Notes under the pieces: model-generated
The model's database searches: none
Told to the model about the DNA's origin: nothing
The model's input: only the letters and a program-made list of their open reading frames with translations
From: an uncultured Roseburia sp.
GTDB lineage: Bacteria; Bacillota_A; Clostridia; Lachnospirales; Lachnospiraceae
Reading direction: 5' to 3'
NCBI GenBank assembly: GCA_900753715.1
Contig: CAAEAE010000129.1
Location: forward strand, 1-17,821
DNA length: 17,821 nt
Translations under genes and position numbers: made by a program
Part shown: one piece after another, positions 3,177-17,788 of the stretch
How positions within the stretch are numbered: the first letter of the stretch is position 1
Layout: the number at the start of each line of letters is the position of its first letter

Positions 3177-5159
3177 TTATTCCACATCCATCTCCGCAAG
3201 CCCGGTCTCTGTCTCAAGCATGCGCTCTAGGAGGCTCTCCTGATTTTTCTCTTCCGCATCGATTGCCTCCTGCAATTCTACAAGTTTCGGATAATCACTG
3301 GCAAGCGCCGGGTCCATAAATTGCAGCTTTAGTTCTGCAAGGCGGCTCTCGCTGTCGGAAAGCATCGTTTCATATTTTTCTAACTGCCGCTTTAATCTGG
3401 AACGGATTTTTCCCGGATTATAATAGGTCTTCTTGTCAAAGACGTCGTCAAGCGTCGGCTGACTCTCCTCCGCCATCCGGCTTACGGCTTCCTTCTGCCG
3501 ATTTGCGCTGCTCCGGCTCTCCTGTGCGGGCAGCTTTCCTGCTTCCTTTGCCTCCTCCGCCAGATAATCTTCGTACTTTCCTGCATATTGCTTTACCGTA
3601 CCATCTGAAAATTCTAAAATTCCAGTGGCAATCCGGCTGATAAAATAGCGGTCATGGGAAACAAATAATACCGTGCCCTCATAGGTATTTAACATTTCTT
3701 CCAATGCCTCTTTTCCGATGATATCCATGTGGTTCGTCGGCTCATCGAGAATTAAAAGATTCGGTCTGGTCTGGAACATCTTGCACAATGCCAGACGCAC
3801 TTTTTCCCCACCGGACAACTGTCCCATCTTTTTGAACACATCCTCACCGGAAAACAAAAAGCCGCCGAGCGCACTCTGCACTTCCTCCCGCACGTAATTT
3901 GGATATTCCTCCCAGAAGTTATCAAGCACCGTCTGCTCTGCATCCACCTGCCCCGATACCGCCTTCTGCTGGTCAAAATATGCCCATTCCACATTCTGAC
4001 CAAACTTAAACTCGCCGCCCAATGCCGGAATCTCGCCAATCAGCGTCTTAAGCAGCGTCGATTTTCCCCTGCCGTTCTCCCCGATGATTGCAAGCCGCTC
4101 TTTTTTCTGCAATAAAAAGGAAACCTCGCTTAGCACTGTGTCATATCCAATCGCAAGTTTTTTCGCCTGGATGACATTCGTATAGCTCTCCGTCCGCGGG
4201 ATATATCTGCCGTGAAATGCCCGTGTGTCAAAGCGCCTTGGCTTTTCAATCTTTACCATATGCTCGATTGCCATCCGTTTGGAGCGCGTTGCCGCTACTT
4301 TCGTCGGCGTGTTCTTCCACTTCTCTATCCAGTCGGTCAGACGCTTGATTTCCTTCTGCTGCTCTTCGTAATCCTTTTCCTGCTTTAGAAGTTCTTCCTC
4401 CTTGCGCTTCATAAATGCTGTATAATTTCCCTCATAGCGCTTGATTTCGTGATACTCGATTTCGTAGGTAACATCGGTAATCCGGTCTAAAAACATCCGG
4501 TCATGCGACACGATGACTACCGCTTTTTCGTACGTGCGCAGATATCCCTCGAGCCACTCAATCGTTGGCAAATCGAGGTGGTTCGTCGGCTCGTCTAAGA
4601 GCATGATATCCGGTCTTTTGAGCAGAAGCTTGATAAATGCCACCTTCGTCTGCTGTCCGCCGGAAAAACTGCCAATCGGGCGTCTCAAATCTTCTAATGC
4701 AAACCCAAAGCGCAAAAACATGGTTTCCATATCCTTGCGCCAGGAATAGCCCTTAAGTGCCTCCATCCGGCTCTGCAAGCTGTCATACTCCCGCAAAAGT
4801 GCCTTATCGTCCGTCTCCTTCATCTGCTCTTCGAGTTCCCGCATGCGCGCTTCGCAGGCAAACACCTCTGCAAATGCCTTTTTGATTTCCTCCTCGACTG
4901 TGACCTCGGTATCTGTGAAATTCACCTGGCGCAAAAAACCGATTTCCTGCTTTCCCGCCATCGTAATCCCACATTCCTCGTCGCTGTCTAAATTGTTCAT
5001 GGAAATATCCCCCGCAATCAGCTTTAAAAGCGTGGTTTTTCCACAGCCGTTTCTCCCCACAACGGCAATTTTTTCCTTATCATGAATTTCAAAATTTACG
5101 TCTTTTAAAATGACATCCCCGCCAAACTGGACCAGGGCATGCCGGATTTGATATCTCAT
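3177..5159 (-). CDS. ABC-F family ATP-binding protein
   Basis: A 660-residue soluble protein with two ABC ATPase domains and no membrane segments, the mark of the ABC-F class, which acts on ribosomes as translation factors or antibiotic-protection proteins. Domain 1 has Walker A GRNGCGKT (35-42), signature FSGGQ (165-169), Walker B LLDEP (187-191) and SHDR (218-221). A charged inter-domain linker follows (about 240-325), where the tRNA-contacting region of ABC-F proteins lies. Domain 2 has GENGRGKST (360-368), LSGGE (448-452), LILDEP (469-474) and SHDR (501-504). Residues about 555-655 form a predicted coiled-coil tail after a Lys/Glu-rich hinge, as in the Uup/YdiF-like housekeeping group. 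The gene starts six bases after the phosphotransferase-like stop and its ribosome binding site is poor, suggesting coupled translation. Whether it gives drug resistance cannot be told from sequence. Confidence 0.93.
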   Translation of the reverse strand: MRYQIRHALVQFGGDVILKDVNFEIHDKEKIAVVGRNGCGKTTLLKLIAGDISMNNLDSDEECGITMAGKQEIGFLRQVNFTDTEVTVEEEIKKAFAEVFACEARMRELEEQMKETDDKALLREYDSLQSRMEALKGYSWRKDMETMFLRFGFALEDLRRPIGSFSGGQQTKVAFIKLLLKRPDIMLLDEPTNHLDLPTIEWLEGYLRTYEKAVVIVSHDRMFLDRITDVTYEIEYHEIKRYEGNYTAFMKRKEEELLKQEKDYEEQQKEIKRLTDWIEKWKNTPTKVAATRSKRMAIEHMVKIEKPRRFDTRAFHGRYIPRTESYTNVIQAKKLAIGYDTVLSEVSFLLQKKERLAIIGENGRGKSTLLKTLIGEIPALGGEFKFGQNVEWAYFDQQKAVSGQVDAEQTVLDNFWEEYPNYVREEVQSALGGFLFSGEDVFKKMGQLSGGEKVRLALCKMFQTRPNLLILDEPTNHMDIIGKEALEEMLNTYEGTVLFVSHDRYFISRIATGILEFSDGTVKQYAGKYEDYLAEEAKEAGKLPAQESRSSANRQKEAVSRMAEESQPTLDDVFDKKTYYNPGKIRSRLKRQLEKYETMLSDSESRLAELKLQFMDPALASDYPKLVELQEAIDAEEKNQESLLERMLETETGLAEMDVE

Positions 5160-5165
5160 GTTTCT

Positions 5166-5786
5166 TCACTCTTTCTTTTTCAGCTCTTCCCATATTGGTA
5201 CAAACAGGGAATGAACCCACAGGTACTGCTCATTCGTTTCGTAATGGCGGTAAGTTCCCTCAAACATCATAATGAGATAGAGGCAAATGTCATACCACTG
5301 TAATTCCTTCATCCAGAAATGACCGAATTTCTTCCCTTTTATCCGGTTTAATCCGGCAAGGTACTCTCCGGTCTGGGCGTTCACCTCCGCCTGTTCTTTC
5401 TCACTCATGTTTCCCCTTGCCGCCGCATAACTTTCCCCATCGAGACTTTCCATCACAAAGTAAATACTGTCGCAGAGTTCATAGCTGTCATCATAACCAT
5501 AAACCTCCGGTACGCCGGAAATTCCCTGCTCTCTGGCAAGCTTCATCGCAGCCACTTCGGTCTGCATCATGCCTTTTTCACAGGACATCATCGTAATCCC
5601 CTTTTTCGGTGCGACTTTTAAAACCGCACGTTTTCCGTCCGAAAGTGTCAGCCGATATGCCGTATTGCAGAATCCATCTGTCAACTCCTCATAGTTTGCA
5701 CGACAATCATCTGCATTAAAAATCTTTTCTGTTATCTTTTGAATCTGTTCCCCCGTCAACCGGTTCTTTGTTACACTCTGGTTCAT
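5166..5786 (-). CDS. Aminoglycoside phosphotransferase-fold protein lacking the catalytic core
   Basis: At 206 residues this is about two thirds of the usual length (around 300) of APH/choline-kinase-like enzymes. The N-lobe is well preserved: a DGFCNTAYRL nucleotide loop (37-46), the ATP lysine in AVLKV (K57), the partner glutamate in QTEVAAMKL (E77) and a hinge VMESLDGE (111-118). The HxDxxxxN catalytic loop and the metal-binding D-x-D that should follow are absent. After GKKFGHF (151-157) the chain jumps to WMKELQWYDICLYLIMM and a YRHYETNEQY tail, which resembles the extreme C-terminus of full-length relatives (from memory of the family). This suggests an in-frame internal deletion of roughly 100 codons around 5300-5320. 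The ribosome binding site AGAAGG lies directly before the ATG, nine bases after the helD-like stop. It is unlikely to be an active kinase; it may be a relic or a binding protein. Confidence 0.75.
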   Translation of the reverse strand: MNQSVTKNRLTGEQIQKITEKIFNADDCRANYEELTDGFCNTAYRLTLSDGKRAVLKVAPKKGITMMSCEKGMMQTEVAAMKLAREQGISGVPEVYGYDDSYELCDSIYFVMESLDGESYAAARGNMSEKEQAEVNAQTGEYLAGLNRIKGKKFGHFWMKELQWYDICLYLIMMFEGTYRHYETNEQYLWVHSLFVPIWEELKKKE

Positions 5787-5795
5787 CCTTCTAAC

Positions 5796-8700
5796 TTAGA
5801 TTTTTCCTGCAAGGTAACGGTACGCCTCATGAAGCTCTTCCTCGCTGTCGGCGCTCATAAAATAGTAATCGAGCTGTGTCATCTTCTCAATGCTGATACA
5901 GCCGCCGTACAGCGGAATATTGCAGCCAAGCACCGTATCATCCGCCGCTATCGCTATCGCATACCCCTTATCTGAAAAAATACAGGGAAGTCTTAACGGG
6001 CGCCCTCCGTGTGAAATATAGCGCGCGCTGTTTTTTAACGGAAGCATCGTTGCCTTTCCGGCGCCAAGTGCCCGGATGCGCTCGTTCCGCTCCCATTCAA
6101 AGAAATTCCAGAACCGCCCGGACTCCAAAAGTCTACACTCATTCTGCCGTTCTGATAAAAGGAGCCTTCCGTCTTTTGTAGAAAAACGAATCGCCCCGCT
6201 TTTCTTTCCGATTGAAACCAGTAACGCCGGTGTCTCTAACTCTATCGCATCCGGTATACTGCGGCAGACCCAGTCTGTTGATACGTCCCTTGCCGCCACA
6301 CATTCGCTGTAAAGCTCCCCCGGCTCCTCCTTTGCAAACGTCACACGGATAATGTCCGGTGCCAGCGGCACAAGCCGCAGTGTACCGTAATTTGTCGTTA
6401 AAAATAATCCTGTTTTCCGCTTCTTTGCCCGCCGGATGGTCAAATCTGCCGGCTCGTGCGGCGCAGGACGAAGCCTGCCGTTTTCCGGCATATCTCCAAA
6501 CGCATAGGGCGATAAATTTGTGCGCCCGGACAAGGGAACCTGTTTTCCAGGCACACGGGGCTGAGGTGCTGGCACACTTTTCACTTCCGGTGTGTGGGGC
6601 TTTGGCTCCGCATTGCGCACTGGTTCCGGTGTGCGGGGCTTTGGCTCCGGCGCTTTTTTCCTGCGCGGGGCAGAAAGCTCTGTCACATCGGATGCCCGCT
6701 CAAGGCTCTTATTTGCCGCCTTTCCTTTCGGTAGCGGCTCTCCAATCAATTCAGTGAGACTGCCCAGATGAAGCACTGCCAGCTCATGGAGCGCACGGGT
6801 TGCCGCCACATACAAAAGCTTCACGGCTGCATCTTCCTTCGGATAATCCTCCTTCGACGGGTCAAAAATCAAAACGGCATCAAATTCCAGTCCCTTGGTG
6901 TCCTCCACCGGAAGCACCATCACACCGGTTGTAAAGCTGCTCACACCGTCCTTTGTTCCCGAGAGCGTAATCCGCCTTCCAAGATGCCCTGCCACTGTCT
7001 CTGCCATCTTAGGTGTTCTACAGATGACAGCTATCGTCTCATAACCGCTCTCCTGCCAGTCCGTAATCGTTTTCGCTGCTGCCTCATAAAGCGCTTTTTC
7101 CCCGGTATATCCTGCAATGCGCACCGGGTTTCCATGGCGGATAATCGGCTCTACCGGATAAACCGGAAAACTTCCGTGATGCAAAATCTCCGTCGCAAAT
7201 TCCGAGATTTCCACTGTATTACGGTAACTTTTCTTCAGCAGATGGAAGCTGTCGTTCATTCCGGTCAGGAAATGCTCCCGCAGCTCCTCCCAGTCATTTA
7301 GCCCACATCCGTAGTGGATATTCTGGGACACGTCGCCCATAATCGTAAACGTGCAGTCCCTGACACAGTATTTTAACACCGCATATGCCATCATGCCAAA
7401 ATCCTGTGCCTCATCAATGACGATGTGGCTTGCCTCCCGGATGAGCTCCGTCTCCTTCACCCGTTTATATAAATATGCCAGCGCCGCCAGGTCGTAAACC
7501 CCGTAATCGTTTTCGGGAATTTCCACCATTGTTCCTTTTGCATTTTCCTGCATCAGAAATTCCGCATACAGTTCAAAAATGGATTTCTTCCATTCTTTTC
7601 CACCAAAATAAAACCGGAGCCGTCTTTTGATTTCCTTCTTTTCATCCGGCGAATAGGCAATTTCTTTTCCGGTCAGCTCGTTTTCTGTCTTGGCGAGAAG
7701 CCTTTTGTTTAGCATCAGGATTTTATTCTGGATGGAAACAGCTGGGTTTTCCCGCAGATAGGTTTCAATCTCCGCTTGGGATAACAGCTGCACTGAACCG
7801 TTTTCCTGCAAAAAGACATCTTCCCTTGGAATAGTGTCCCATTCTAACCTGCGGCAGTACTCCTCAAGCTCTTTAAACCACTTTAGCGTTCCCTTCCGGC
7901 TCTCTCTCGGGTCGTCCTCGTTTCCTTCCCGGATGTGCATCGTCTTTTCATCCCATTCCTCATAGAGAAGACGCACGAAAAGTTCGCTCATCGTCATTTG
8001 TCGTACACCATGCACATCCAAATCCGGAAGCACACTCGTAATGTAGCCTAAAAGTATCTGGTTGCTTCCGACAATATAAAAGTCCTCCGGGCGGAAATCG
8101 TCCGCATAGTTATACAGAATATAAGAAATCCGGTGCATGGCAACGGTCGTTTTTCCGGAACCTGCCACACCCTGCACAATCAGGTTCTGTCTCGGAGATT
8201 TGCGGATAATCGCATTCTGTTCCTTCTGGATGGTCGCAATGATTTCACCAAGCACCGCTTTTTTATTCTTTGCTAAATACTTTGTCAAAAGCTCATCGTT
8301 TGCCACCACATCCGAATCATAGTAGTCGACTAACGTATCGGCGGCAATTTCATACGTGCGCTTCCGCTTTAAATCAATCGAAAATGTGCCCTCTCCCTGT
8401 ACCGTATAACTGCATTTTCCCATGCCGTTTTCATAGTACGCATTTGCAACCGGAGCACGCCAGTCCACCACTTCGATTTCTGTAACGCTTCTTGTAATTC
8501 CGACTTTTCCGATATAAAAAGTTTCTAATCGTTTTAAATTCTCATCGATGAAATCAATACGCCCGAAATAAGGCGTTTTTCTGGCTTTTTTTAACCGCTC
8601 AAGGTCTGCCTGCGCCTCCTCGTACTGCACAGCGGTGTTCCGCCAGATAGAAAGCGCCTCCACATCTTTTGCCCCGTAGCTCTCCAAAAGGTCGTGTAAG

Positions 8701-8831
8701 TCTTCGCCAAGCTTTTTCGTATTCGCGGTTCCTTTTTCCAGATTCTGCTCGGCAACCGCAATCACATGCGCTAATTTCTGCTCTTCCTCTGCCCGCGAAC
8801 TGAGTGGAAATTCTTCTTTTTCTGACGACAT
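5796..8831 (-). CDS. helD: HelD-like UvrD-type helicase fused to a GH31 N-terminal-like beta-sandwich
   Basis: A 1011-residue protein. Residues 14-85 are a charged N-terminal coiled coil, then PYFGRIDF (87-94) and VVDWRAPVANAYY (121-133), hallmarks of HelD, the ATPase that recycles stalled RNA polymerase. Superfamily 1 motifs follow in order: Walker A GVAGSGKTT (221-229), Walker B VIDEAQDF (471-478), IMGDVSQNIH (497-506), YRNTVEIS (536-543), VEDTKGLEFDAV (642-653) and LYVAATRALHEL (673-684). HelD proteins usually end near here, at about 700-775 residues. This one continues with a Pro/Lys-rich linker (about 720-765) and residues 803-1011. That last part looks like the galactose-mutarotase-like N-terminal domain of GH31 glycosidases (TNYGTLRLVPLAPDIIRVTF at 813-832, LPCIFSDKGYAIAI at 948-961, LDYYFMS and AYRYLAGK near the end). 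No GH31 barrel follows. The start directly abuts the upstream MATE stop and has AGGAGG seven bases before it. Helicase identity is firm; the tail's role is unknown. Confidence 0.88.
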   Translation of the reverse strand: MSSEKEEFPLSSRAEEEQKLAHVIAVAEQNLEKGTANTKKLGEDLHDLLESYGAKDVEALSIWRNTAVQYEEAQADLERLKKARKTPYFGRIDFIDENLKRLETFYIGKVGITRSVTEIEVVDWRAPVANAYYENGMGKCSYTVQGEGTFSIDLKRKRTYEIAADTLVDYYDSDVVANDELLTKYLAKNKKAVLGEIIATIQKEQNAIIRKSPRQNLIVQGVAGSGKTTVAMHRISYILYNYADDFRPEDFYIVGSNQILLGYITSVLPDLDVHGVRQMTMSELFVRLLYEEWDEKTMHIREGNEDDPRESRKGTLKWFKELEEYCRRLEWDTIPREDVFLQENGSVQLLSQAEIETYLRENPAVSIQNKILMLNKRLLAKTENELTGKEIAYSPDEKKEIKRRLRFYFGGKEWKKSIFELYAEFLMQENAKGTMVEIPENDYGVYDLAALAYLYKRVKETELIREASHIVIDEAQDFGMMAYAVLKYCVRDCTFTIMGDVSQNIHYGCGLNDWEELREHFLTGMNDSFHLLKKSYRNTVEISEFATEILHHGSFPVYPVEPIIRHGNPVRIAGYTGEKALYEAAAKTITDWQESGYETIAVICRTPKMAETVAGHLGRRITLSGTKDGVSSFTTGVMVLPVEDTKGLEFDAVLIFDPSKEDYPKEDAAVKLLYVAATRALHELAVLHLGSLTELIGEPLPKGKAANKSLERASDVTELSAPRRKKAPEPKPRTPEPVRNAEPKPHTPEVKSVPAPQPRVPGKQVPLSGRTNLSPYAFGDMPENGRLRPAPHEPADLTIRRAKKRKTGLFLTTNYGTLRLVPLAPDIIRVTFAKEEPGELYSECVAARDVSTDWVCRSIPDAIELETPALLVSIGKKSGAIRFSTKDGRLLLSERQNECRLLESGRFWNFFEWERNERIRALGAGKATMLPLKNSARYISHGGRPLRLPCIFSDKGYAIAIAADDTVLGCNIPLYGGCISIEKMTQLDYYFMSADSEEELHEAYRYLAGKI
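6585..6649 (-). repeat. 39-bp tandem repeat in the HelD linker
   Basis: A 26-base sequence starting TTCCGGTGTG at 6585-6610 recurs at 6624-6649 with one mismatch, a period of 39 bases (13 codons). It encodes two EPKP(R/H)TPE units in the Pro-rich linker between the helicase and the C-terminal beta-sandwich. Confidence 0.75.
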
Positions 8832-10169
8832 CTATGCCTCCTTTTCTTTGCTGCCTGACTGCGGCACACCCGGATGTCTGACCGCCTTTATCAGCCCTGT
8901 TATCGTGACAAGCATTGTTCCAAGCTCCGCCACCGGAAATGCAAGCCACACGCCATTCATGCCAAAGGCGGCAGACAGGGTAAATGCAAACAGTAAAATC
9001 AGCACAAACCCACGCAGAATAGACGCCGTAAACGCCCATTTTGCAGACTCCACCGCACTTAAAATACCGGTTCCCACAATGTTGATTCCGGCAAATAAAA
9101 ATCCGGTAAAATAAAGTCTTAATCCGGTCTCGGCATAAGCGGCAAGCGTGGCATCCCCCTCGCTGTTAAAAATTGCCGTAATGCCCTTTGCACCAGCCGC
9201 AACACCCGCAAAAATGGCAATTGCAAGTACAAGTGTCGTTACAACTGCAAGTCTTATCAAAAGCTTTACTTCGCCTGGCTTTTGTTTTCCATAAGAACTG
9301 CTGACAAGCGGCTGGGAGCCCTGGGAAACCCCGTTGAAAATTGCAACCGCCACAAGGGACGTATTGGCAACCACACCGTATGCGGCAACTCCGATATTTC
9401 CAGCAAGAGAGAGAATCATCATGTTAAACGCCGTTGTGATGACACCGGAAGAAATTTCTCCGACAAACGCGGCAACTCCAAGCTGGCAGGAACGAACCAA
9501 CCGCAAAAACGATGGTTTTACCGCATGAAATGCAATACTGCACCGGCTGGACCGAAAATGTATCGTGCAGATAAGAATTCCAATCACCGGGGAGATTGCC
9601 GTTGCAAGCGCAGCGCCCGGCATCCCCATTTTTAACGGAAACATTAACACATAATCCATCACGATGTTAAAAAGGCTGCTGCACAGTGTCGCCGCCATCG
9701 CAATCGACGGTGCACCGTCGTTTCGCACAAACGCATTGCAGATATAGTTTAATATAAAGAAAGGCGAAAACAGCATAAAGATTCTCGTGTAAGGCGCGCC
9801 GATTGCAACAATCACCTCATCGCCGCCCAAAAGTGAGACAAGCTGCCCTGGCAAAAAAAGTCCAATCAACAAAAATCCGATTCCTATGACAATGCCCCAG
9901 AAAAGCGCATTAAAAAAATAGCCCTCCTTATCTTCTCCTGTCCGGTTCTTTGAAACCGTGTAGCGGATGGCGGACCCGACCCCTATCATGGCTCCGATGG
10001 CAAAAATCAGGTTATAAACCGGCAATACCAGATTTAAGGCAGTGATGCCGTTTGCGCCCACTGCCTTTGCGATAAAAAAAGTATCCGCCAGAATATATAA
10101 GGACATTCCTATCATTCCAAATACATTCTGGGAGACATATTTTGCAAATTGTTTTTTTACAGATATCAT
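8832..10169 (-). CDS. MATE family efflux transporter
   Basis: A complete 445-residue MATE exporter of the cytoplasmic membrane, near the family's usual length. The N-terminal helix segment MSLYILADTFFIAKAVGANGITALNL matches the MepA-like branch, where an Asp in the first helix (here in ADTFF) is typical. Later FFILNYICNAFVRNDGAPSIAM and the internal repeat GVAAYGVVANTSLVAVAIFNGVSQGSQPLVS match the two-bundle MATE fold. MATE proteins export cationic drugs, metabolites or peptides in exchange for Na+ or H+; the substrate is not predictable. The gene follows the hydroxyacid dehydrogenase by 30 bases with an AGGAAAAGAAG ribosome binding region, and its TAG stop directly abuts the helD-like ATG. 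It is not a close copy of the frameshifted MATE gene at 1787-3147. Confidence 0.93.
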   Translation of the reverse strand: MISVKKQFAKYVSQNVFGMIGMSLYILADTFFIAKAVGANGITALNLVLPVYNLIFAIGAMIGVGSAIRYTVSKNRTGEDKEGYFFNALFWGIVIGIGFLLIGLFLPGQLVSLLGGDEVIVAIGAPYTRIFMLFSPFFILNYICNAFVRNDGAPSIAMAATLCSSLFNIVMDYVLMFPLKMGMPGAALATAISPVIGILICTIHFRSSRCSIAFHAVKPSFLRLVRSCQLGVAAFVGEISSGVITTAFNMMILSLAGNIGVAAYGVVANTSLVAVAIFNGVSQGSQPLVSSSYGKQKPGEVKLLIRLAVVTTLVLAIAIFAGVAAGAKGITAIFNSEGDATLAAYAETGLRLYFTGFLFAGINIVGTGILSAVESAKWAFTASILRGFVLILLFAFTLSAAFGMNGVWLAFPVAELGTMLVTITGLIKAVRHPGVPQSGSKEKEA

Positions 10170-10180
10170 CTTCTTTTCCT

Positions 10181-10206
10181 ATCTAAATTTCTAAATTCTC
10201 TAAATT
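10181..10206 (-). repeat. Three short ATTTAGA repeats in the spacer before the MATE gene
   Basis: On the minus strand ATTTAGA occurs three times at 8-9 base spacing, the first copy including the dehydrogenase stop codon and the last running into the MATE ribosome binding region. It may reflect local slippage; a role is not evident. Confidence 0.5.
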
Positions 10207-11186
10207 ACACGCCAGGGATTCTCTTTTCCCTCCATGAAGCATTTACAGCTTAACAGCGAATTTTTCACCATTCCCTCGATGGCATTGTCCGTATAAAATG
10301 CCATATGCGGTGTCACGATGACATTCGGGAAGGAACGCAAAATTGCAAGGTCCCGGTTTTCCAACACCTCTGATTTTAAATCGTTATAGTAAAGTCCAAA
10401 TTCCTGCTCTACCACATCAAGTCCTGCCGCTGCAATCTTTCCACTCTCGATTCCCGCAATCAGTGCCTTCGAATCAATCAGTCCGCCGCGCGCCGTGTTG
10501 ATGATGACAACCCCGTCTTTCATTTTCGCAATGCTCTCTTCATTAATCAGATGGAAATTCTCCTCAAAGAGCGGCGCATGCAGGGTAATCAGGTCACTTT
10601 CTGACAATAATACCTCAAGCGGCACATACGTGGCATTTTCTTTTACCGCCTCATTTTCAAACGGGTCATATGCTAAAATTTTGCAGCCGAATCCGCGAAG
10701 CTGTTTGATGACGGTCTGTCCAATCCGCCCGGTTCCGATAACGCCCACGGTAAAATCGTGTAACTCCCGGCCTTCATTTCCTTTCAGCGAAAAATCCTGA
10801 ATTTCCGCCCGCTGCATAATCCGTTTCATCCTGCGGATGCACATTAACATCAGCATAATCGTATAATCCGCAACGCCCTCTGGCGGGTAGACGGCATTTC
10901 CGACGCCTATCTGAAGCTCCTTCGCGCGCGCAAGGTCAATGTGGTCATACCCGATGGTTCGGGTCGAAATATAGCGGATGCCGCACTCATGAAACGCAGT
11001 CACCATCTCAGAGGGAATCTTTGATGTAATAATACTCAGGCAGTCACACCCTCTCGCAAGCTCAATGTTTTCCCCCATCTTCGGCGCCTGCTCACAGATT
11101 TTCAACTCAATGCCAAATTCTCTACTATATTTGTCAAACCATCTTTTTTCATCAAATTCCCGATAATTGTATACCAGAACTTTCAT
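10200..11186 (-). CDS. D-isomer-specific 2-hydroxyacid dehydrogenase (VanH/D-lactate dehydrogenase-like)
   Basis: A 328-residue cytosolic NAD-dependent enzyme expected to reduce a 2-keto acid (pyruvate or a longer one) to the D-2-hydroxyacid. The Rossmann motif is GTGRIGQ (151-157) followed by an Asp (D174, in AYDPF) that favours NAD over NADP. The catalytic triad is in place: R233 (NTARGG), E260 (DVVEQEFG) and H294 (TPHMAFYT). YISTRTIGYDHID (72-84) and VADYTIMLMLM (105-115) are close to VanH and D-lactate dehydrogenases. No VanA-type ligase or VanX peptidase gene is near, so a vancomycin-resistance role is not supported. The ribosome binding site GAGGGA overlaps the stop region of the aminotransferase ten bases upstream, implying translational coupling. 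The exact keto acid is unknown. Confidence 0.9.
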   Translation of the reverse strand: MKVLVYNYREFDEKRWFDKYSREFGIELKICEQAPKMGENIELARGCDCLSIITSKIPSEMVTAFHECGIRYISTRTIGYDHIDLARAKELQIGVGNAVYPPEGVADYTIMLMLMCIRRMKRIMQRAEIQDFSLKGNEGRELHDFTVGVIGTGRIGQTVIKQLRGFGCKILAYDPFENEAVKENATYVPLEVLLSESDLITLHAPLFEENFHLINEESIAKMKDGVVIINTARGGLIDSKALIAGIESGKIAAAGLDVVEQEFGLYYNDLKSEVLENRDLAILRSFPNVIVTPHMAFYTDNAIEGMVKNSLLSCKCFMEGKENPWRVI

Positions 11187-11196
11187 GTCATTTCCC

Positions 11197-12369
11197 TCAC
11201 TTCTTTAAAATACCGCTCTCTGCAATGACTTTTACCGCTTCCTCTATCACTTCCACCGGAAGCACCAGTGCAAAGCGCACATAGCCTTCTCCCATGCTAC
11301 CAAACGCATCTCCGGGCGTCACAATTACTCCGGTCTTTTCCATTAATTCTATGCAGAATTCCTGCGAGGAGGAAAAGCCTTCCGGAATTTTTGCCCAGGC
11401 AAACATCGTACCCTGACTGTCCTTTACGTCCCAGCCGATGGAACGCAGTCCACCACAGAGGGCATCCCGTCTTTTCTGATACTCCAGGCACTGTTTCTTT
11501 ACGCCATCCTGCGGTCCCCGCAATGCCGCAATCGCCGCACACTGAATTGGGTAAAACATTCCAAAATCGTACTGGGAGCGCAGTAATTTCATCGCATCCA
11601 CAATCTTGCGGTTTCCGATGACAAAGGACACCCGCGCACCGGTCAGATTAAACGACTTGGAAAGTGAGAAAAATTCCACACCGATTTCTTTTGCGCCCGG
11701 ATATTCTAAGAACGAGCCGCCGTACACACCATCGTAGATAATATCCGAATAGGCATTGTCGTGAATGACGATAATGTTATATTTTCTGGCAAATGTAATC
11801 AGTTCCTCATAAAATCCATGCGGCGCTACCGCACACACCGGATTATACGGATACGATACCATGATGTATTTTGCCCTCTTTGCGATGTCCTCCGGGATTT
11901 CGTCAAAACGCGGTAAAAACTGATTTTCTTCCTTTAACTCATAAAAATATAACTCCGCTCCGCCAAAGTAAGCGCCCGCCTCAAATACCGGATAGCCTGG
12001 GTTTGGAAGCAGCACGACATCCCCCGGATTGCACAACGCCATGCCGATGTGCGCAATTCCCTCCTGCGAACCGTTTACAGATGTAATTTCGTCTGTAGAA
12101 ATTTCCACATGAAAACGTTCCTTATAATAATCCTTTACCGCCGCTAAAAGCTCCGGCGTATCCCGCAGCATATAATGAAAATTTTCCGGTTTCTCTGCCG
12201 CCTCGATTAATGCCTGTCTGACATGCGGCGCCACCGGGAAATCCGGCGTTCCGACCGACAGGTTGTATACCGTTCTTCCGCTTGCAGCAAGCGCTTCCTT
12301 CCTTTCGTTCAATGTCTTAAAAATTCCGGTCTGAAAATGCTCTAACCGTTTTGCTGTTTCAATCTCCAT
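11197..12369 (-). CDS. PLP-dependent class I/II aminotransferase (LL-DAP aminotransferase-like)
   Basis: A 390-residue fold-type I aminotransferase. The PLP Schiff-base lysine is K238 in SLSKSFNLTGARVSF. The cofactor aspartate is D204 in IHDNAYSD, the cofactor-contacting Asn is in SYPYNP (172-177), and the substrate-carboxylate arginine is R365 in EGYVRFAL. The YNLSVGTPDFPVAPHV opening and overall layout are closest to the LL-diaminopimelate/alanine/methionine aminotransferase group. In the usual NPTGA motif the glycine is replaced (NPVCA), as I recall also for a side branch in Clostridia. The gene has an AGGGGG ribosome binding site eight bases before the ATG. It sits directly upstream of a D-2-hydroxyacid dehydrogenase, which fits a pair converting an amino acid to its keto acid and then to a D-hydroxy acid. 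Substrate assignment is uncertain. Confidence 0.88.
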   Translation of the reverse strand: MEIETAKRLEHFQTGIFKTLNERKEALAASGRTVYNLSVGTPDFPVAPHVRQALIEAAEKPENFHYMLRDTPELLAAVKDYYKERFHVEISTDEITSVNGSQEGIAHIGMALCNPGDVVLLPNPGYPVFEAGAYFGGAELYFYELKEENQFLPRFDEIPEDIAKRAKYIMVSYPYNPVCAVAPHGFYEELITFARKYNIIVIHDNAYSDIIYDGVYGGSFLEYPGAKEIGVEFFSLSKSFNLTGARVSFVIGNRKIVDAMKLLRSQYDFGMFYPIQCAAIAALRGPQDGVKKQCLEYQKRRDALCGGLRSIGWDVKDSQGTMFAWAKIPEGFSSSQEFCIELMEKTGVIVTPGDAFGSMGEGYVRFALVLPVEVIEEAVKVIAESGILKK

Positions 12370-14564: not shown

Positions 14565-15443
14565 CTATTCCGTGATTTTGTGGTAACACTCCGGTCTTCT
14601 GTCCCGGAACAATCCCCACTCCAAGCGTTTCTGCTGCAACTCATCGAGGTCAAAGCTCTGCATTAAAATCTCCTCTTTGTCCCGCGCCGCAGTCTCTAAA
14701 AGTTCTCCCGTCTCATCTGCTACAAAGGATGAACCGTAAAAGTTCAGAGACGAACTCTGTCCACCGTTTTCTGCCGAAGGCTCCACTGTCTCCACTCCGA
14801 TGCGGTTTGACGCTATCACCGGTATCAGATTGGAAGCCGCATGTCCCTGCATACATCTGCGCCAGTGCGGCATGCTGTCACACTCCAAAATCGGCTCTGA
14901 ACCGATTGCCGTCGGATAAAAAAGAAGTTCTGCGCCCTCTAATGCCATACAGCGCGCGGTCTCCGGAAACCACTGGTCCCAGCAGATTCCCACCCCGATG
15001 GTGCCAAACCTTGTCCGGAATACCTGAAAGCCGCTGTCTCCCGGTGTAAAATAGAATTTTTCCTGATAATAATGGTCATCCGGGATATGCGTCTTGCGGT
15101 AAACGCCAAGGATTTTTCCGTCCGCATCAATACAGGCAATGGAATTATACAGATTATTGACGTCCTTCTCATAAAAACTGATAGGCAGTACCACTCCAAG
15201 CTCCTTCGCTAAGCGAATTCCCATCTGTACCGCTGCATTTACATTTGTCTCCTCTGCATACCGGTAAAACTCATAGCATCTCTGCTGACAGAAATATTCC
15301 CGCTCAAACAGCTCCGGCAGAAGAATCACATTTGCCCCTGCTTCCGCGGCTTTGCGTACCATTTTCTCCGCTTTCTTTAAATTTGCCTGTCTGTCCTTTT
15401 CACAGCGCATCTGCACTGCCGCCACCGTTATCTTTCTCATCAT
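14565..15443 (-). CDS. aguB: N-carbamoylputrescine amidase
   Basis: A 292-residue nitrilase-superfamily enzyme that hydrolyses N-carbamoylputrescine to putrescine, CO2 and ammonia (EC 3.5.1.53). The catalytic triad is E44 (LLPELF), K117 (YRKTHIP) and C154 (GICWDQWFPE). KTHIPDDHYYQEKFYFTPGDSGF and the PHWRRCMQGHAASN stretch are typical of AguB rather than of other nitrilases. The first ATG overlaps the aguA stop by four bases. A second ATG immediately after it (15440) is better placed for the AGAGG ribosome binding site and gives the MRKITVAAVQM start seen in relatives, so the true start may be one codon later. It is the last gene of the polyamine operon and ends at the strong terminator. Confidence 0.96.
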   Translation of the reverse strand: MMRKITVAAVQMRCEKDRQANLKKAEKMVRKAAEAGANVILLPELFEREYFCQQRCYEFYRYAEETNVNAAVQMGIRLAKELGVVLPISFYEKDVNNLYNSIACIDADGKILGVYRKTHIPDDHYYQEKFYFTPGDSGFQVFRTRFGTIGVGICWDQWFPETARCMALEGAELLFYPTAIGSEPILECDSMPHWRRCMQGHAASNLIPVIASNRIGVETVEPSAENGGQSSSLNFYGSSFVADETGELLETAARDKEEILMQSFDLDELQQKRLEWGLFRDRRPECYHKITE

Positions 15444-16624
15444 TTTCCTCTATTCTTTCCGCAGTTTCCTGCCGGAATCTGCTGGGTGATACAGTGAATG
15501 TTGCCGCCGCCCACCAAAATATCCCTTGCATACACAGAAATCACTTTCCTCTCCGGGCAGAGCTCTTGCATCATCTGCGCCGCCCGCCTGTCACTTGCTT
15601 CATTTTCTCCGCCAAACGCCGGCATAACAACCGCTCCGTTGGAAAAATAAAAATTGACATAGGAAGCTGCTAAGCGTTCTCCCGCCTCTCTCTCATCCTC
15701 TCCGGCTTCAAACGTATAACCCTCTAATTCTTTCTCTGTAATGCAGACCGGAATGTCGGGAATCGGAAGCTTGTGCACGATAAGCTTTCTCCCCTTCGCG
15801 TCACATTCCTGCTCCAAATAGGACAGGCACGCCATTGAGAGTGCATATTGTGGGTCGTTTTTGTTGTCTGTCCATGCAAGCACGACCTCTCCCGGCCGTA
15901 TAAATGCACAGATATTATCCACATGTTCATTCGTTTCATCCTGGTAGATACCTCTCGGAAGCCATAAGATTTTCCGTGCCCCAAGATATTTCTTTAATCT
16001 GGATTCAATTTCTTCTTTCGACAGTTCCGGATTTCTCCCAGCACTGAGCAGACAGGCTTCCGTTACCATCACGGTTCCTTCCCCATCGCTGTGAATGGAG
16101 CCGCCCTCCAACACAAACGGCGACGCATCATACATTGGAAAGTCATAACGGCTTGCAAAAAGCTGTGCAAACGCATCATCTTTTTCCCAGGAAGCATACA
16201 GTCCATCCACTTCTCCGCCCCATGCGTTAAAGCGCCAGTTGACCGCCCGCACTTCCTTCCCGTCTGTCACGAAGGTCGGCGCAACGTCTCTCGCCCACGC
16301 ATCGTCTGTCTCCGCCGGAAAAATCCGTACATTTTTCTGCCACTCATTATCTGCCTCAGACAGTTCTGCACCAAGCAGCATCTCTTTTGCGGAGGCAATG
16401 CTTCTCTCTCCTGCCGCCACATAAACCGTCTCGCTCTCTGCAATGGCAGCAATGACTTCCCGGAATGCCCTTCTCGCCGCCTTCGCTTCATAAATCCACG
16501 AACCGGGACGCTCCGGCCAGATTAAGATACATCCCTGATGGGGCGCAAACTCTGCCGGCATGAAAAATCCATCCGCAAGCGGTGTCTTTTCTGTTATTGT
16601 GTAAAATCCCTGCTTTTCTGCCAT
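15440..16624 (-). CDS. aguA: Agmatine deiminase
   Basis: A 394-residue guanidino-group hydrolase (EC 3.5.3.12) that turns agmatine into N-carbamoylputrescine and ammonia. Family landmarks are DDAWARDVAPTF (108-119), NWRFNAWGG (129-137), LEGGSIHSDG (172-181), ETNEHVDN (230-237, with H234 and D236) and the C-terminal GGGNIHCITQQ, where C378 is the nucleophile. It is slightly longer than typical members (around 365-385). Only three bases separate it from nspC upstream, and its own ribosome binding site is weak and distant, so it is probably translated by coupling. It overlaps aguB by four bases. Confidence 0.97.
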   Translation of the reverse strand: MAEKQGFYTITEKTPLADGFFMPAEFAPHQGCILIWPERPGSWIYEAKAARRAFREVIAAIAESETVYVAAGERSIASAKEMLLGAELSEADNEWQKNVRIFPAETDDAWARDVAPTFVTDGKEVRAVNWRFNAWGGEVDGLYASWEKDDAFAQLFASRYDFPMYDASPFVLEGGSIHSDGEGTVMVTEACLLSAGRNPELSKEEIESRLKKYLGARKILWLPRGIYQDETNEHVDNICAFIRPGEVVLAWTDNKNDPQYALSMACLSYLEQECDAKGRKLIVHKLPIPDIPVCITEKELEGYTFEAGEDEREAGERLAASYVNFYFSNGAVVMPAFGGENEASDRRAAQMMQELCPERKVISVYARDILVGGGNIHCITQQIPAGNCGKNRGK

Positions 16625-16627
16625 ATC

Positions 16628-17788
16628 TTATGATAATCTTCCTTTAAAATCTTCGTAGCCAAATCTCTTGATTAGTTTTGTCGTTTTATCTTCCTGCAAC
16701 AGCACAATATCCGGCAGTGGAATCCCATTAAACGTATTGTTTTTTACCATGGAATAAATCGCCATATCCTCGAAAATCAGCCGATCTCCCACCTGAATCT
16801 TGTGCTCAAAGCTGTAATCACCAATCACATCTCCCGCCAGACAGGTCATCGAGGAAAGCCGGTATGTATAGGGCTTCTCCCCTGCCTCATAGCCGTCCTT
16901 TAACGGCGGGCGGTACGGCATCTCAAGCACATCCGGCATATGACATGCCGCGGAAGCATCGAGAATCAGGATGTCCAAATCATTGTGCACGATATCAAGC
17001 ACTTCCGTCACAAGATAACCCGCATTTAAGGCAATCGCCTCTCCCGGCTCCAGATAGACCGTAACACCATAGGTATCTTTTATCCTGCAAATCAGTTCTT
17101 TTAACGCCTTCCTGTCATAGTCGGCTCTTGTGATATGGTGTCCGCCACCGAGATTTAACCACTTTATCTGGGACAGATACGTACCAAATTTCTGCTCAAA
17201 TGCCTCAAATGTGGTCATTAAATCATCCGCATTCTGCTCACAGAGCGTGTGAAAATGAAGCCCTTCCACATCCTCCGGCAAGCGTCCCTCAAATGCTTTG
17301 TCAAAAAGCGCCTTTGTCACACCAAGCCTGGAGCCCTTTGCGCACGGGTCATAGATGGCGTGGTCCCCCTGCGTGGAACACTCCGGGTTCACACGGATTC
17401 CGATGCTGCAATGCACACCGCCCGTTTTCGACTGATTGTACCGCGCCACCGTCTCCCGGTGTCTCTCATACTGTGCCACGGAATTAAACACGATGTGGTC
17501 ACAGATTTGCACCAGCTCTGGCATATCCGCATCCTTAAATGCCGGCGCAAAGACATGGTTTTCTTTTCCCATCTCTTCCCTGCCAAGCCTCGCCTCATAC
17601 AGTCCGCTTGCCGTTGTTCCGCTTATATACTGCCCAATGAACGGGTAAAGTGCAAATGCCGAAAATGCTTTCTGTGCGAGCAGGATATGACATCCCGTCT
17701 CCTGCTCGATTTCGTGCAATATTCTTAAATTGTCTTTTAATTTCTTTTCATCAATTACATAGCATGGGGTCTGTAATGTTTCAAACAT
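16628..17788 (-). CDS. nspC: Carboxynorspermidine/carboxyspermidine decarboxylase
   Basis: A 386-residue fold-type III PLP decarboxylase that removes CO2 from carboxyspermidine (or carboxynorspermidine) to give spermidine (or norspermidine). PLP binds K40 in LLAQKAFSAF. Further landmarks are GLHFHTLCEQ (176-185), LGGGHHITR (213-221), the phosphate-side EPGEA (247-251), C316 in MTCLAGD and YSMVKNNTFNG (345-355), all in the order expected for NspC rather than for lysA or ornithine decarboxylases. The ribosome binding site GGAG lies seven bases upstream. Next to aguA and aguB, which supply putrescine, the natural product is most likely spermidine (inference). Confidence 0.96.
   Translation of the reverse strand: MFETLQTPCYVIDEKKLKDNLRILHEIEQETGCHILLAQKAFSAFALYPFIGQYISGTTASGLYEARLGREEMGKENHVFAPAFKDADMPELVQICDHIVFNSVAQYERHRETVARYNQSKTGGVHCSIGIRVNPECSTQGDHAIYDPCAKGSRLGVTKALFDKAFEGRLPEDVEGLHFHTLCEQNADDLMTTFEAFEQKFGTYLSQIKWLNLGGGHHITRADYDRKALKELICRIKDTYGVTVYLEPGEAIALNAGYLVTEVLDIVHNDLDILILDASAACHMPDVLEMPYRPPLKDGYEAGEKPYTYRLSSMTCLAGDVIGDYSFEHKIQVGDRLIFEDMAIYSMVKNNTFNGIPLPDIVLLQEDKTTKLIKRFGYEDFKGRLS

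Follow-up and report, generated by a model that had tools for sequence, protein, structure and literature searches.

Background

The closest described system to the protein analysed here is HelD of Bacillus subtilis (class I; 6WVK and 6ZCA), a member of a family of current interest for its involvement in RNA polymerase recycling, dormancy and rifampicin tolerance. It combines a UvrD-like motor (with a Walker A motif), a secondary-channel arm whose tip carries the acidic residues Asp-56 and Asp-57 (PMC7749167), and the DWR (Trp-cage) motif, a HelD feature located in the N-terminal domain (PMC8655204). In B. subtilis, HelD is assisted by the delta subunit of RNA polymerase, with which it cooperates (PMC7749165). 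The reported HelD structures considered here (6WVK, 6ZCA and those from M. smegmatis) are of tailless forms. The available part of a survey of HelD classes (PMC8655204) gives protein lengths of 671-872 residues and contains none of the terms "C-terminal", "extension" or "glycos".

Two other systems are relevant to the comparison. The SF1 motor of PcrA/UvrD ends in a conserved beta domain preceded by a linker of low conservation, and in PcrA this arrangement provides a tether to RNA polymerase, with the Tudor domain binding the beta subunit (PMC5397179, PMC8318588). The GH31 alpha-xylosidases, such as BoGH31A (5JOU), Xac1773 (7KMP) and CjXyl31A (2XVG), and their Lachnospiraceae relatives begin with a beta-sandwich that precedes the catalytic barrel. 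Here we describe a gene joining a HelD-type motor to a sandwich of the latter kind. It is a clear-cut example of a domain that the transcription machinery has taken over from a metabolic enzyme and retained across a bacterial family. This architecture is surprising and, as anatomy, well supported; its function is predicted.

A HelD-type motor with a C-terminal extension

The gene lies in a 17,821-nucleotide stretch of DNA from an uncultured Roseburia sp., analysed as a whole and referred to as the window. Its features are:

5796-8831, minus strand: whole fused gene, an uninterrupted frame of 1011 codons plus stop
6741-8831, minus strand: HelD motor, residues 1-697, UvrD-like 1A/2A domains with arms (profile and Foldseek matches)
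8577-8795, minus strand: predicted helical hairpin corresponding to the secondary-channel arm, residues 13-85 (structure prediction and alignment)
8457-8465, minus strand: DWR motif of HelD proteins, residues 123-125 (alignment)
8148-8171, minus strand: Walker A motif GVAGSGKT, residues 221-228 (alignment)
6507-6740, minus strand: linker, residues ~698-775, basic and rich in Pro, predicted to be disordered, containing imperfect 21-nt repeats
6456-6500, minus strand: tail signature FGxMP...LRPxGH, residues 778-792, N-terminal to the sandwich and absent from GH31 enzymes
5799-6455, minus strand: GH31 N-terminal-domain-like beta-sandwich, residues 793-1011 (profile, fold and alignment)
6012-6026, minus strand: tail-specific motif ARYIS, residues 936-940 (mostly T-Q-Y-L-H in related GH31 enzymes)
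5922-5924, minus strand: Cys-970, conserved in 41 of 41 compared tails and not in GH31 enzymes

An earlier note on this DNA, made from the letters alone, had proposed a HelD-type motor, and both profile and structure bear this out. The motor matches NCBIfam HelD_BACSU with an E value of 7.5e-108 and 361.4 bits; this score is below the curated cut-off of 419 bits for NF041464, the B. subtilis-type HelD equivalog, so the fused protein is not filed under it. Neither did any fused frame from the strain genomes or from the HelD search of 299 genomes (see below) exceed this cut-off, and the fused proteins belong to another branch of HelD cores than the tailless HelDs that do. The first seven Foldseek matches of the full-length model (33 sequences, mean pLDDT 80.7, pTM 0.58) were HelD proteins of B. 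subtilis and M. smegmatis, with B. subtilis HelD as the best one (6wvk_H, E 4.0e-38). The Walker A motif, the DEAQD box and DWR are invariant in all 33 aligned fusions, and both DWR and G..GSGKT are present in 54 out of 54 full-length fused loci. The hairpin helices are predicted at residues 13-51 and 57-85 around a conserved acidic tip, where Asp-56 is nearly invariant and Glu-58 invariant among the same 33 fusions. By analogy with class I HelDs, we infer that the fused motor would perform ATP-driven release of stalled RNA polymerase.

Unlike the B. subtilis protein, which has neither a C-terminal linker nor a sandwich, the fused protein continues well beyond its motor. The Pfam matches (UvrD and AAA) stop at residue 686, in agreement with the motor end near 690 read from the sequence previously, and in tailless HelDs (31 usable proteins, regex search) the chain ends 6-33 residues past the last motor motif, so that everything beyond approximately residue 697 is extra in the fused protein. 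The segment 5796-6674, to which the earlier note assigned its observation, corresponds to residues 720-1011 plus the stop; it indeed contains the domain but only a part of the linker, as the extra region starts earlier, near 6740.

The Pro-rich repeat linker had also been recognized correctly. Positions 6586-6650 within it form an imperfect tandem repeat with a 21-nt period (3.2 copies, 59% matches), and its residues 710-765 are predicted with pLDDT below 50. Among related proteins the linkers have a median length of 125 residues with ~9.5% Pro and a median net charge of +9, being positively charged in 107 cases out of 109. The closest relative of the window protein, P0002, with 99% identity in the tail, exceeds it by 13 residues and has one extra copy of a repeat unit in its linker.

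The tail is related to the N-terminal domain of GH31 enzymes

Taken alone, the window protein gave only 15.4 bits (E 0.024) against Pfam PF13802, not reaching the gathering cut-off of 27; the best phmmer match of its tail in PDB had an E value of 0.014, and the tail has no NCBIfam match. A profile constructed from this tail and 20 related ones yielded a strong GH31 N-domain match, and structure comparison showed that the predicted fold of the tail matches the GH31 N-terminal sandwich (PF13802 fold). As the window does not attain the Pfam gathering score, the kinship rests on profile and fold. PF13802 was detected at E <= 0.1 in 15 out of 21 related tails (best 2.8e-8). The 50 best structure matches in each of two lists were glycosidases, with no Tudor-like fold among them. 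Overall, the resemblance to a GH31 N-domain suspected earlier was upheld, by profile and by fold, once the related tails were included.

An alignment with whole GH31 enzymes continues until immediately ahead of the catalytic barrel, the tail being collinear with GH31 alpha-xylosidases up to the last strand and helix that precede it. The frame thus stops where it was said to stop, and no match to the barrel (PF01055) was found in the fused protein. A tail devoid of the barrel has no active site. It also differs from the alpha-xylosidases in being basic rather than acidic, in having lost the enzyme invariants and in having acquired invariants of its own.

The most likely source of the tail is an alpha-xylosidase-type GH31 enzyme, as judged by similarity searches and phylogeny. 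The top scores of the tail search, after the fusions, belong to GH31 enzymes of the same family. An enzyme from Eisenbergiella tayi (L093) contains the complete set of GH31 domains. Three alpha-xylosidases are its best relatives in PDB, and the tail profile finds these three in identical order. In a phylogeny built from 41 tails together with 41 N-domains of GH31 enzymes, the tails form one group (SH-aLRT 100), which, upon rooting on L098 and L099, is nested in the enzymes beside L101 and P0232 (path support 54-100).

Occurrence and origin of the fusion

When residues 790-1011 were used to search 5.8 billion proteins, with a length window that excluded short ones, 115 matches were obtained. 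All but one contain helicase domains (114 proteins, three of them partial), the remaining one being a GH31 enzyme; six of the 115, missed by the motif search, were left out of the tail alignment. Precomputed PF13802 labels are attached to 12 out of the 114 fusions, and the raw fact of the fusion is therefore already present in automatic Pfam labels. The public names of this branch are "AAA family ATPase" or "3'-5' exonuclease", and no description of a HelD with a GH31-type tail was found in searches of open-access literature, in line with the novelty presumed at the outset.

The pattern scan of species genomes (with patterns derived from six tails) identified 59 fused loci, 47 of them labelled as Lachnospiraceae, three as Eubacteriaceae, one each as Clostridiaceae and Oscillospiraceae, and seven bearing no family label. 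A single fused frame of at least 1000 codons (range 1024-1265) is present in 54 loci; among the other five, L013 and L041 are cut at the locus start and L058 at the end, and L027 and L052 have shorter frames. Intact fusions occur in E. tayi DSM 26961, E. porci, Acetatifactor muris DSM 23669, [Clostridium] polysaccharolyticum DSM 1801 and Lacrimispora saccharolytica An817. Hence, the fusion is conserved across Lachnospiraceae far beyond the source assembly; with the profile and structural matches also significant, the earlier reading of the fusion and of its GH31-like fold stands.

Within the family of E. tayi, a tail match better than E 1e-37 was obtained for 24 out of 299 genomes, and in 21 of them it lies in one frame of 1011-1145 codons. 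Weaker matches in these genomes are almost wholly confined to GH31-sized frames. At the level of the order, the fusion was found in 11 out of 392 genomes, the two samples sharing at least G002, G035 and G296. The tail search covered the order of E. tayi, and the six-tail pattern scan reached beyond it; the fusion may occur more widely. All matches stronger than E 1e-37 in the 299 and 392 genomes lie in frames of 1011-1145 codons, apart from G055 and G013 (cut by contig ends) and G156, and none represents the tail as an independent gene. The motor and the tail of G156 (L092:179-3287) are in different, overlapping frames, so the fusion looks broken there; in Eubacterium plexicaudatum ASF492 (L052:5614-8723) the core of the fused gene is split over two frames. 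In viral contigs, 16 stretches matched a pattern and none was confirmed.

The fusion probably arose once and anciently, as suggested by the phylogeny of the HelD cores. In a tree of 42 fused and 31 tailless cores, the latter hand-picked rather than random, the fused proteins form a single group with one label change (SH-aLRT 100, used as the only support measure, with no bootstrap). Among the tailless rows, L088, L069 and L078 are closest to this group; L075, a partial sequence, was excluded, and L079 entered the tree without its first 330 residues. HelD was detected at E <= 1e-40 in at least 98 of the 299 genomes, at least 56 of them over the cut-off (both counts are lower bounds, with at most three candidates scored per genome), and these 98 include 23 of the 24 genomes with the tail. 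Canonical tailless HelDs occur in sister lineages and also alongside the fused form in the same genomes. Among seven strain genomes searched, two have one tailless HelD beside the fused form (Lacrimispora with a fragmentary third in addition) and that of E. tayi has two, while in four the fused form is the only HelD seen, one of these being E. plexicaudatum with its broken core frame. The tail may thus matter for basic RNA polymerase upkeep in these four. The fused form therefore appears to be a paralogue of its own that is kept vertically, subject to a tailless sample that was hand-picked and not random.

Divergence of the tail from its enzyme relatives

The tail domain is under purifying selection at the sequence level: the median dN/dS is 0.15 for the tail (54 locus pairs) and 0.11 for the motor (56 pairs) vs 0.50 for the linker (42 pairs), where pairs share sequences and are not independent. 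The net charge is reversed with respect to GH31 N-domains, with a median of +5 in the tails (positive in 108 out of 109) vs -8 in the enzyme domains (positive in none of 111, after leaving out 17 of 128 rows that do not have the barrel-start motif). The HelD cores have a median of -17.

The core fold residues of the sandwich are retained in the tails. On the other hand, positions invariant in 37 enzymes (Gly-921, Gln-924, Gln-941 and Asn-943 in window numbering) are variable in 41 tails, which have fixed a different set: FGxMP and LRPxGH before the sandwich, Tyr-815, Arg-819, Phe-832, Trp-908, ARYIS at 936-940 (literally present in 43 out of 54 full-length fused loci), Cys-970, Pro-973 and Tyr-975. 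Taken together, the dN/dS value of the tail, the reversal of charge and the lost and gained invariants argue that the tail is maintained and re-specialized. The segment with G-L-G-Q and Q-x-N is presumably what is termed the "N-loop" in GH31 enzymes. An N-loop is described as lining the pocket (PMC4742823).

A stretch of ~33 residues that is present in 35 out of 37 compared GH31 N-domains is missing from all 41 tails. We considered this loop as proof of a lost enzyme role and dropped the argument, because a full GH31 enzyme, L100, is also devoid of it and yet retains G-L-G-Q and Q-x-N; the absence of the loop in the tails therefore proves nothing by itself. L100 (L100:841-3126) sits in a genome (G621) that has a fused HelD elsewhere.

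Possible roles of the tail

We give about an even chance to the proposal that the RNA-polymerase-recycling motor of a Lachnospiraceae lineage uses its once-gained GH31 sandwich as a module that docks, on a tether, to RNA polymerase or nucleic acid. The motor would act in the manner of class I HelDs and open RNA polymerase; the sandwich, carried by a long linker that is basic and flexible, would bind to a surface of either partner; and, once docked, it would keep the motor near its target, as the linker and Tudor domain of PcrA do with the beta subunit. The similarity to PcrA/UvrD would be one of working principle only, as a Tudor domain of ~50 residues and a GH31-type sandwich of ~220 residues have unrelated folds. 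The basic tail and its own conserved residues lean towards a new protein or nucleic-acid surface rather than sugar binding, the basic charge fitting nucleic acid and acidic protein alike. Docking is weakened by the canonical tailless HelDs of sister lineages and of the same genomes, which need no tail, and the nonconserved gene neighbourhood gives no functional hint in its favour.

The tail could also stand in part for the delta subunit. Delta (HARE-HTH) was found in none of 15 fused genomes, with a positive B. subtilis control; as the sample consisted of fused genomes alone, this implies no correlation with the tail, and the substitution is a lead only. The flexible region of delta is strongly acidic (-47) as opposed to the basic linker, with no homology between the two.

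The tail might instead dock onto some other partner, e.g. a ribosome or membrane component. Its conserved new surface residues and basic charge would suit many acidic partners; however, no linked partner gene is seen in the 59 loci, and the arms with which the motor engages RNA polymerase are intact, making such a partner rather unlikely.

The hosts of the fused HelD are saccharolytic gut bacteria, a setting that would suit a sensor, in keeping with the binding or sensing module suggested in the earlier note. The sandwich would still recognize a carbohydrate or a metabolite resembling a sugar, and RNA polymerase recycling or storage would be coupled to the level of this ligand. The core fold residues are kept, and in the ancestral enzyme the domain flanks the sugar site (PMC4742823). 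According to the same source, however, the GH31 N-domain merely helps to shape a pocket that is mostly made by the barrel, which is missing here. The enzyme-invariant residues, including G-L-G-Q and Q-x-N, are lost from the tails, even though enzymes with a shortened loop retain them, and linkage to sugar genes is not conserved (9 out of 59 loci have sugar ABC permeases within 8 kb). The missing barrel and the loss of these residues make sugar sensing distinctly unlikely. We regard as improbable the particular scheme in which the barrel-less domain binds a cytoplasmic sugar or sugar phosphate and, via the linker, sets the grip of HelD on RNA polymerase or its release; if true, the carbohydrate supply of gut bacteria would be linked to their recycling of transcription or to dormancy.

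Dimerization of the fused HelD through its sandwich, promoting paired dormant RNA polymerase, is just as doubtful. Dimers of the B. subtilis RNA polymerase-delta-HelD complex do resemble hibernating RNA polymerase I, but in that structure HelD is located outside the dimer interface (PMC7749165). Finally, a misjoin, a frame or annotation artefact or a functionless passenger domain, to which the subthreshold Pfam match of the window and a few broken copies (L052, L092) might point, is hardly credible and was rejected, given that the same fusion is found in many independent assemblies (named strains included), in one clade and mostly in single frames, with a tail dN/dS near that of the motor.

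Gene neighbourhood

In the window, the fused gene belongs to a single minus-strand run (3177-10169, with gaps of 0-9 bp) together with:

8832-10169, minus strand: MATE transporter
5166-5786, minus strand: APH-like kinase (PF01636)
3177-5159, minus strand: ABC-F protein, ribosomal protection-like (480.8 bits, cut-off 380)

This run may be an operon with which the species responds to drugs or stress; the same arrangement is absent from the other fused loci (59 compared). A conserved operon was rejected, as no gene cluster is common to more than 17 out of 60 sequences (the 59 loci and the window), and the most widespread neighbour cluster (17 out of 60) consists of generic ABC ATPases at varying distances.

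On the same strand, the region 10200-12369 encodes a dehydrogenase closest to VanH-type D-lactate dehydrogenases (below every NCBIfam cut-off), adjoining an LL-diaminopimelate-aminotransferase-like gene. A polyamine run at 14565-17788, also on the minus strand, comprises N-carbamoylputrescine amidase, agmatine deiminase and carboxynorspermidine decarboxylase, each scoring above its NCBIfam cut-off.
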